Assembly (NCBI RefSeq): GCF_003201675.2
Contig: NZ_CP029287.2
Coordinates: forward strand, 1,488,001 to 1,552,000
Source of the DNA: Metallosphaera hakonensis JCM 8857 = DSM 7519
GTDB taxonomy: Archaea; Thermoproteota; Thermoprotei_A; Sulfolobales; Sulfolobaceae
DNA: 64,000 nucleotides
Reading direction: 5' to 3'
Shown here: positions 19,886 through 46,318 of the stretch, piece after piece
Layout of the letters: the number at the start of each line of letters is the position of its first letter
How positions within the stretch are numbered: position 1 is the stretch's first letter
Program-made: the position numbers and the translations under genes
The notes under the pieces: generated by a model
What the model was told of the DNA's origin: nothing
Database searches by the model: none
What the model saw: only the letters and a program-made list of their open reading frames with translations

Positions 19886-19953
19886 GGGGCTATCTGCTAT
19901 AGTTGTGTATTTCGCTTGAAATGACGTTTCTTACACATCTACACAGGAAAGCC
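19886..19953 (+). repeat. Copy A of a ~69-bp block shared with 46031-46099
   Basis: The block runs from GGGGCTATCTGCTATAGTTG to ACACAGGAAAGCC and matches the second copy at about 60 of 69 positions with one indel. It contains the inverted hexamers GTGTA...TACAC around a 25-base centre. Both copies lie upstream of an int(N) relic that abuts a tRNA gene, so it is probably element-derived non-coding DNA. The remainder of 19636-20119 contains an AT-rich terminator-like stretch (19684-19712) and nothing else I can name. Confidence 0.75.
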
Positions 19954-20119
19954 TCACGTTACATCCTAGTCACTGAGTCTTTCCATAAATTTCTTCGAAT
20001 TTTCGCATAGATGAGGGTCCTTTGCCTTCTTCTTTCAGTATCAGGTATTTTGACAGCAAAATTTAACGTCTTGTCATTGCTTACAAACTCGTTTTAGCAT
20101 CATAATATGGGACGCAAAA

Positions 20120-20379
<260 letters not shown>

Positions 20380-20485
20380 AGGATAACTGTGGTTAACGTT
20401 TTTAAAAACCTATCGGTCTTTTCATTCAAATATTAAGTATTGTGCCCAAAGAATTTTGCTCATAAATAGTGGCATCTTTGATTTG

Positions 20486-21055: not shown

Positions 21056-21187
21056 GGGCCCATAGCTCAGCCAGGTTAGAGTGCTGGGCTCCAGATAACT
21101 ACATTGGGTCTGTCGACCCGTGAGGGGATGAAATATATCTGGAATGGAGAGACCCAGTGGTCCGGGGTTCGAATCCCCGTGGGCCCA
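21056..21187 (+). tRNA. tRNA-Trp (CCA) with a 57-base intron
   Basis: Acceptor GGGCCCA/TGGGCCC, D-arm GCTC...GAGT, anticodon arm CTGGG-CTCCAGA-CCCAG (anticodon CCA) and T-arm CCGGGGTTCGAATCCCCG. A 57-base intron (21095-21151) interrupts the anticodon loop at the canonical 37/38 site; mature length is 75. The intron has a GGGTC-GACCC hairpin and a GATGAAA that could be a degenerate box C, but a clear box D is missing. In other archaea this intron can act as a C/D guide; that is not shown here. Confidence 0.95.
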
Positions 21188-25041: not shown

Positions 25042-25564
25042 GAAACTGAGGTCAGAGAACTTATTATCTACCCATATTGCTGAGTTGAAGACCTTTGATT
25101 TAATCTTAGACGGAAGGTTAGTGGGAAGATGTCATTATTTTTTAGGAAGAGGGTATTACCCGCCCTGGATAGAGCTAGATTATGATCCTTGGCCGAGACG
25201 GGAACAGATAGAGGTAGATATTTTCAAAGTATTTTTCGATCTTCTTAAGGAGAACGGGAGATTCTTTGTAACATACTACAAGGATTCTAGCACTTTCGGT
25301 GCAATCATGAGAGGACTCTCAATTGCAGACACCGAGTTAGGTAGATCCCTGATAAGGGCCGGGTTCACTTGGTTTAAGAACTGGTACTTTCCTGAAGGGG
25401 GCAATGAAGGAGGAATGAAAGTGCAGGCAAACAAAAATATGGATATTAACGTTAGGAAACGGCACTTAACAGAATTATTAGCAGAAGTTAAAACCCCAGA
25501 AAGCAGAGAGCTAATCGCTGAGTTACTTGCTCAAGGGCAATCCAGAGATAGGTCTTTACAATAG
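25016..25564 (+). CDS. Conserved archaeal protein, DUF1122-like
   Basis: The 182-residue protein ([20 protein letters not shown], then [20 protein letters not shown]) resembles the uncharacterised archaeal family I recall as DUF1122; no catalytic motif is known to me. Start 25016 lies inside the nucleotidyltransferase gene and its end overlaps the radical SAM gene by 38 bases. The C-terminal helix [18 protein letters not shown] looks like a protein-contact segment. Confidence 0.6.
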
Positions 25565-26546
25565 GGAACTTCCCAAGGGATGCGAACTATGCAGAATGGG
25601 AGGCAAGATGGTTGTATTTATATCAGGAGAGTGTGGAGACTCGTGTTATTACTGTCCTGTGAGCGAGGGCAGATTTGGTAAAGATCAAGCCTACGTAAAC
25701 GAACTTAAGGTCTCGGATCTCTACGACTTCGTTCATGAATCATATAGAATGAACGCTCTAGGTGCAGGGATAACTGGCGGAGATCCTCTGCTCCATTTGG
25801 ACAGGGTAGTCGAGCTCATAACAATTCTAAAAGATGAGTTCGGAAAGTCCTATCACGTTCATCTCTACACTACTGGAAGGTATGCTACCAATGATGCTCT
25901 ATCAGAACTAGCTAAGGCTGGGCTTGATGAAATTAGGTTTCATCCGACTAAGATTCAATACCTTTCAGCAATCGAGAGGGCACTCAAATTTCAAATGGAT
26001 GTCGGAATAGAAATCCCTGCGATTCCTGGAGAGGAGGAAAAGATATCCAATCTGATAAAATGGGCCAAAGAGAAGGGAGTGAAATTTGTAAATATTAACG
26101 AGCTAGAGCTCACGGAGAGAAATTTTCAGAATCTAAATACAAAAGGTCTTAGAGTTAGTCATGGGTTAGCAGGAGTTTCCGGGAGCTTTCAGACGTCTCT
26201 AATGGTACTGGAGAAGTTTAGCGAATCTGAGATATCATTGCATTATTGTAGCTCGGTGTACAAGGATGTGGTAGAGACAAGAACAAGGTTCATACGAACG
26301 CTGAGGGTTAGCGGTAAACCCTATGAGGAGATCTCAGGTGAAGGAACTTCGGTGAGAATGCTAGTCAAGACAAATCAAGACCTTTCGGAGCTAGGTGAGA
26401 GAAGAGGAGACTCGTACATTATTCACCCTTCCATGCTTGACTCCCTTCCCATGAATAACGTGACCGAAATATGGTTAATAGAACAGCTCCCTTACGGCCA
26501 AAAGATATCTGAGAAATTAATTTATCCTAAATCTAAGAATAGCTAA
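25527..26546 (+). CDS. Radical SAM protein (COG2108-like)
   Basis: A 339-residue enzyme whose cluster-binding motif is [16 protein letters not shown] (CxxxCxxC), followed by the SAM motif [10 protein letters not shown] and typical TIM-barrel strands ([30 protein letters not shown]). An additional N-terminal CELC pair could hold a zinc or second cluster. Family members are related to pyruvate formate-lyase activating enzymes but their substrate is not known. TTG start; 38-base overlap with the DUF1122-like gene. The 3' end overlaps convergent pelA by 30 bases. Confidence 0.83.
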
Positions 26547-45632: not shown

Positions 45633-46030
45633 AATCAGACCCAATATGACCCTAGCAACGTTAATTAGATCGTACCCGTGAAAGAGCTATATAATGTATA
45701 TTTGTAGTCACGTGGGGAGAATAACCGAAAGGCCTAATTTAAGTATGCATTCACAAATAGACTTGAGACTAGATATAGGGTAGTAAGGTAAAGGATATGG
45801 TTGGAGAGGAAAGGGGTTAGTGTTATGTTAGGATTAAGCTAAAAGAAGATGGGGGATGAGTTCAATATAACTATCTGGACCCAACTAATTCAGAATCATA
45901 TAAACAGTTTACAGGTAAAAGCCCATTTTCAACTAAGTATTGATTTGATAATTATCAAGGTTTTTAAGTTAAGGTCGCGATAATCACGTCATGGGAAATA
46001 GAGTTTTCACATTTGGAGATATCAGAATAA
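45633..46030 (+). other. Gene-poor spacer with a leaderless-looking promoter and truncated 18-codon frame
   Basis: No intact gene is visible. At 45960-45968 TTTTTAAGT forms a good TATA box 27 bases before ATG 45991, which opens MGNRVFTFGDIRIRGYQL and stops at 46047, just inside the repeat block at 46031. This looks like the head of a leaderless gene whose body was lost at the junction with element-derived DNA. The remaining bases show nothing I can name. Confidence 0.4.
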
Positions 46031-46099
46031 GGGGCTACCAGCTATAGTTGTGTATTCCGCCTGAAAATGACGTTTCTTACACATCTATCCAGGTAAGCC
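46031..46099 (+). repeat. Copy B of the ~69-bp block shared with 19886-19953
   Basis: Runs from GGGGCTACCAGCTATAGTTG to ATCCAGGTAAGCC. Same orientation relative to the int(N) fragment and tRNA as copy A. In this copy the int(N) fragment starts directly after the block, whereas about 165 bases separate them in copy A, so a deletion or different junction is implied. Confidence 0.75.
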
Positions 46100-46100
46100 G

Positions 46101-46280
46101 CGAATAAGGAAAGTTAATGGGAAGTATTACGCCTACCTAAGTAGAGAAGGACAACGATGATAAGAGAGGAGACCGTTACGTGAGTCCCTTAAAAAGGTAG
46201 TAGGAACTTACGTTAGCATCGAGGGTGTGGGGATATACCCCACAGCGCCTCGGGACGGACTCGAACCGTCGACCGCTCGG
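46101..46280 (+). pseudogene. Second int(N) relic, degenerate SSV-type integrase fragment
   Basis: Reading RIRKVNGKYYAYLSREGQ, then after a one-base shift DKRGDRYVSPLKKVVGTYVS and IEG...PRDGLEPSTAR, this matches the SSV-type integrase N-terminal pattern (compare [29 protein letters not shown] and PPGFEPGTS in the copy at 20120). The last residues come from the complementary strand of tRNA-Asn, the attachment site. Start codon and first ~17 residues are missing and there is an internal frameshift, so this scar is older than the one at tRNA-Gly. Confidence 0.72.
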
Positions 46281-46318
46281 TTAACAGCCGAGCGCTCTGC
46301 CAGCTGAGCTACCGAGGC
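46246..46318 (-). tRNA. tRNA-Asn (GTT), second integration site
   Basis: Acceptor GCCTCGG/CCGAGGC, discriminator G, D-arm GCTC...GAGC, anticodon arm CTCGG-CTGTTAA-CCGAG (anticodon GTT), T-arm GACGGTTCGAGTCCGTC. 73 bases, no intron. The 3' half supplies the att-encoded end of the neighbouring int(N) relic. Confidence 0.95.

Follow-up and report, generated by a model that had tools for sequence, protein, structure and literature searches.

The conserved non-coding block that occurs twice in the window (the 64,000-nucleotide stretch of Metallosphaera hakonensis DNA analysed here) is almost certainly a 71-bp MITE: it derives by deletion from an IS256-family insertion sequence (IS), lacks autonomy and would be mobilised in trans. 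It has defining traits of such elements: it is short and non-coding, with terminal inverted repeats, target duplications of fixed length, dispersed copies and ends shared with an IS. Copy number, boundaries, duplications, an empty site, the shared ends and a bias towards intergenic DNA can all be read directly from the sequence; mobilisation by the IS256-type transposase is what we infer from them.

The two copies in the window

On realignment, the two blocks are identical in 61 of 69 columns, with one gap and seven mismatches, in agreement with the roughly 60 of 69 positions given by the first-pass annotation. The alignment score of 52 compares with a maximum of 12 across 300 shuffles, and the similarity stops sharply at the block edges (flank scores of 8 and 8). 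Boundaries were set from all copies and from the target duplications (Table 1); the 5' starts proposed earlier were kept, while the true 3' ends lie two bases further out. Both blocks are on the forward strand, like both int(N) relics, so the common orientation relative to int(N) stands. The spacing to int(N) had been put at about 165 bases for one block and a single base for the other; the former is correct for copy 1, which lies 165 bp upstream of relic 1, but the latter is not, as copy 2 sits within int(N). The inverted GTGTA/TACAC arms are present as described, and form the inner ends of the terminal inverted repeats of the element.

Table 1. Coordinates of the MITE copies, integrase relics and attachment genes (window positions, except in the last row).
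Feature	Position	Strand	Remarks
MITE copy 1	19886..19955	+	70 bp, intergenic; from own-genome matches and flanks
Copy 1, left terminal repeat	19886..19909	+	Matches IS256-family IS ends
Copy 1, right terminal repeat	19932..19955	-	Matches IS256-family IS right end
SSV-type int(N) relic 1	20120..20338	+	Runs into tRNA-Gly(GCC); from tblastn to SSV integrases and own genome
tRNA-Gly(GCC)	20303..20380	-	Attachment gene of relic 1
SSV-type int(N) relic 2	45991..46289	+	Split by MITE copy 2, runs into tRNA-Asn(GTT)
Copy 2, left target duplication GAATAAGG	46025..46032	+	Last GG shared with the first bases of the element
MITE copy 2	46031..46101	+	71 bp; splits int(N) relic 2 at roughly codon 14
Copy 2, right target duplication GAATAAGG	46102..46109	+	Follows the element
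tRNA-Asn(GTT)	46245..46318	-	Attachment gene of relic 2
Nested MITE copies (L016, L026, L027, L029, L030, L032, L034, L035, L037)	Genome positions 276620, 412179, 458400, 469391, 208637, 219456, 956690, 2019275, 2500585		Within the second element

Relic 1 shares 70–76% identity with SSV integrases in the best rows of a tblastn search. Relic 2 starts with the ATG at 45991 and picks up again beyond copy 2, at about 46102; its frame reads MGNRVFTFGDIRI before the element and RKVNGKYYAY after it. Uninterrupted int(N) paralogues at genome positions 1362072 and 1394352 read through the insertion point without the element (GATATCAGAATAAGGGAAGTT in L139). For the repeat around copy 2 to have its full 8 bp, 2 bp would have to have been lost from a run of G, whereas in the flanks of copy 1 a target duplication is no longer recognisable. 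Elsewhere in the window, a 132-bp tRNA (21056–21187), probably with an intron, was identified by Rfam; it lies between the int(N) relic and the gene for the SRP RNA.

Copy number, borders and target duplications

The genome-wide search suggested by the first-pass annotation was productive. In the whole 2.54-Mb genome, BLAST with the first block returned at least 40 matches and a profile search at least 108 at E ≤ 1e-3; the profile was built from 24 copies, with 150 candidates scored per genome, and 108 may be a lower bound where the oldest copies are concerned. Length, flanks and overlap with open reading frames (ORFs) were examined more closely for 84 copies. Exactly 71 bp long in 63 of these, the element is too short for a protein gene and has no coding capacity. 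The borders are sharp and common to the aligned copies (GGGGCTACC...GCCTC), and the terminal repeats are imperfect inverted repeats of 24 bp (GGGGCTACCGGGTATAGTTGTGTA / GAGGCTTCCATGTATAGATGTGTA). Four copies at unrelated sites do not differ by a single letter. Target repeats aside, the flanks of different copies are unrelated, with the exception of a nested group.

Exact direct repeats of 7–9 bp abut the element in 20 of the 84 copies (8 bp in nine, 9 bp in eight and 7 bp in three); when flanks are re-paired between copies, the chance expectation for 8-bp repeats is about zero. At genome position 1848789, a gene-like reading frame contains the element with TGAATTCTG on either side, while a paralogue at 25558–26128, 89% identical to this filled site, has the 9-bp TGAATTCTG only once (at 25836) and lacks the element. 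This pair of empty and filled sites supports past movement of the element.

Among the functions suggested earlier for the block, that of a small separate mobile sequence is correct: the roughly 100 copies occupy unrelated places, and many of them have target duplications of their own. The same distribution speaks against a regulatory RNA or terminator and against a recombination or packaging site. If the block were a structured RNA or a terminator conserved alongside integrase genes, its highly conserved inner part and the stem that GTGTA and TACAC could form would fit. However, covariance analysis of the collected copies, also suggested earlier, gave a covariation term near zero (−0.05) for the consensus fold, the inner stem being almost invariant apart from broken cells; the block has no Rfam match, and most copies are unrelated to integrases. 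We consider an RNA function extremely improbable.

Nine MITE copies are carried within a second element of about 214–220 bp, whose ends read GTATTTCCGG.../GTACTTCCG... and whose target appears to be TA (Table 1). There, the 71-bp element has multiplied as a passenger.

Integrase relics and occurrence in other genomes

Only four of the 84 copies lie in ORFs of at least 100 amino acids, compared with a background cover of 67%; the other 80 are outside long ORFs. The proximity to integrases, which we regard as incidental, is therefore explained by insertions that persist neutrally between genes and in dead DNA. The genome contains about ten int(N) relics, three of which hold the element, one of them by way of the second, nesting element; the two that contain it directly do so in opposite orientations. 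These two insertions, at 1961349 (L137) and at window position 46031, are independent and are both at about codon 13–14; in the third relic (2019275), the nesting element was inserted at about codon 7. An integrase-linked site was considered and rejected: only about five of the 84 copies have an int(N) relic within 1 kb, and the enrichment at relics is marginal and post hoc (Poisson P about 0.04). Nor is the shared position near the relics functional, given that copy 2 lies inside its relic, copy 1 upstream of the other, and that a further relic carries the element in the opposite orientation.

The location of both window copies by SSV-type relics, and the presence of the element in three of about ten relics, might also be expected if the element were a viral recombination or packaging site that SSV-like proviruses had left behind. 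Yet the proposed virus-database search did not detect the element in any of 50,697 phage records or, by exact core pattern, in IMG/VR; in addition, the uninterrupted paralogues lack the element, and its orientation and position vary among relics. A viral origin of this kind thus has next to no probability. The element was also absent from plasmid records, and its exact core pattern from GTDB contigs; close relatives of the window's genome may be missing from these collections.

Among 31 genomes of the family, the element was found at E ≤ 1e-5 only in the window's own genome and in one of another genus (G013), with two matches there, one of them with the duplication CCTGGGTTA; a further genome from the same genus gave a single, very weak match. 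In G013, a near-consensus copy with its own duplication occupies positions 1501–1571 of L040. Its presence in a different genus suggests horizontal transfer.

The proposed partner insertion sequence and related elements

The ends of the element, over 22–29 bp, match those of a 1.3-kb IS in the same genome, which encodes a 414-amino-acid Transposase_mut (IS256-type) protein and which we take to be an ISC1332-like IS256-family insertion sequence. In the relative G019, a transposase homologue with an open frame is present at locus L044, and the G019 homologue matches Pfam Transposase_mut (PF00872) with an E-value of 1.1e-67. In three relatives (G016, G019 and G029), similarity is limited to the first 23–24 bp of the element, corresponding to the ends of the 1.3-kb IS, and Metallosphaera javensis has a 64–67% relative with similar ends. 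Five near-full-length copies are resident in the window's genome (L052, L053, L058, L059 and L060); they are 96–98% identical to each other in DNA and share 85–89% protein identity with the G019 copy, with left terminus GGGGCTACCAGTTATAGTTGTGGT and right terminus GGGGCTACCGGGTATAGATGTGTAAGAAA. The MITE consensus matches the right end of L058 in 24 of 24 bp and, over a longer span, the IS right end for about 27–29 bp, with three mismatches over 27 bp. The left end of the IS is matched over 22 bp by copies of an older MITE subfamily, as read from alignments. L052 is flanked by an 8-bp target duplication, AGCAGGTC; IS256-family elements generate duplications of 8–9 bp (PMC3189936).

All five resident copies appear frameshifted, so present mobility is unproven, and no intact transposase source of the matching type was found among them. 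The apparent frameshifts differ between copies and are accompanied by 3-bp deletions, despite the high DNA identity; they could reflect recent decay or sequencing error. The frameshifts leave some room for the same MITE having been mobilised by a different or lost transposase that merely resembles that of the resident IS, as do five further IS256-type genes (37–38% identity) with open frames. However, the end identity is specific to the 1.3-kb IS, and around the five divergent genes inverted repeats were at noise level, with no MITE-like ends. We judge another transposase to be unlikely, and favour the resident IS type as the partner.

The MITE consists of some 22 bp from the left end of the IS and some 29 bp from its right end, with an unrelated stretch of about 20 bp in between. 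The transposase of a full-length IS would bind these ends in trans and mobilise the mini-element, and insertion at a staggered cut of 8–9 bp would give rise to the direct repeat. Repeated rounds would have produced the roughly 100 copies of differing ages, with most surviving insertions located in intergenic DNA or in defunct genes, viral int(N) relics among them, which is why the two window copies are near integrase remnants. More speculatively, the terminal repeats fill most of the 71 bp, so the element is perhaps near the smallest IS256-type substrate that can be moved. IS256 probably moves through circular intermediates; a double-stranded circle of 71 bp would be very strained, so another route may be used. 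The two independent insertions in opposite orientations at about codon 13–14 hint that SSV int(N) genes may be hit preferentially at their 5' ends. We hold this combination of minimal size, non-circle route and target preference to be rather improbable.

MITEs are known as a kind, and this one is, as far as searched, unreported: the literature on Metallosphaera and MITEs contained no report of it, with subscription papers and ISfinder outside the search. It resembles the SM-type MITEs of Sulfolobus (SM1–SM4, SM3A and SMN1) in being short and non-coding, with inverted terminal repeats, in belonging to the Sulfolobales and, probably, in mobilisation in trans by a resident IS. SM-type families have 25–44 copies each in S. 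solfataricus P2 (PMC10969869); in S. islandicus, SM3A (164 bp) depends on ISC1058 and SMN1 (320 bp) on ISC1733 (PMC3718332). By its 71 bp, 8–9-bp duplication, IS256-family ends and about 100 copies, the new element is set apart from these, judging by their descriptions rather than their sequences. With IS256-family insertion sequences it shares the terminal repeats (GGGGCTACC...) and the duplication length, but the resident IS carries Transposase_mut, whereas the block is geneless and consists of two ends only. MITECca01 of Cardinium, 240 bp long and derived from an IS982 element in a bacterial host (PMC9769881), is likewise lineage-specific, high-copy, mostly intergenic or in mobile elements and derived from a resident IS (PMC9769881); it differs in length, IS family and the domain of its host, here an archaeon.

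The MITE accounts for a piece of conserved non-coding DNA that might otherwise pass for a regulatory RNA or a viral site, and adds a very short, high-copy element of IS256 type to those known from Sulfolobales. With old, young and nested copies and an empty site in one genome, it offers a system for dating transposition and for addressing the minimum size of a mobile element.
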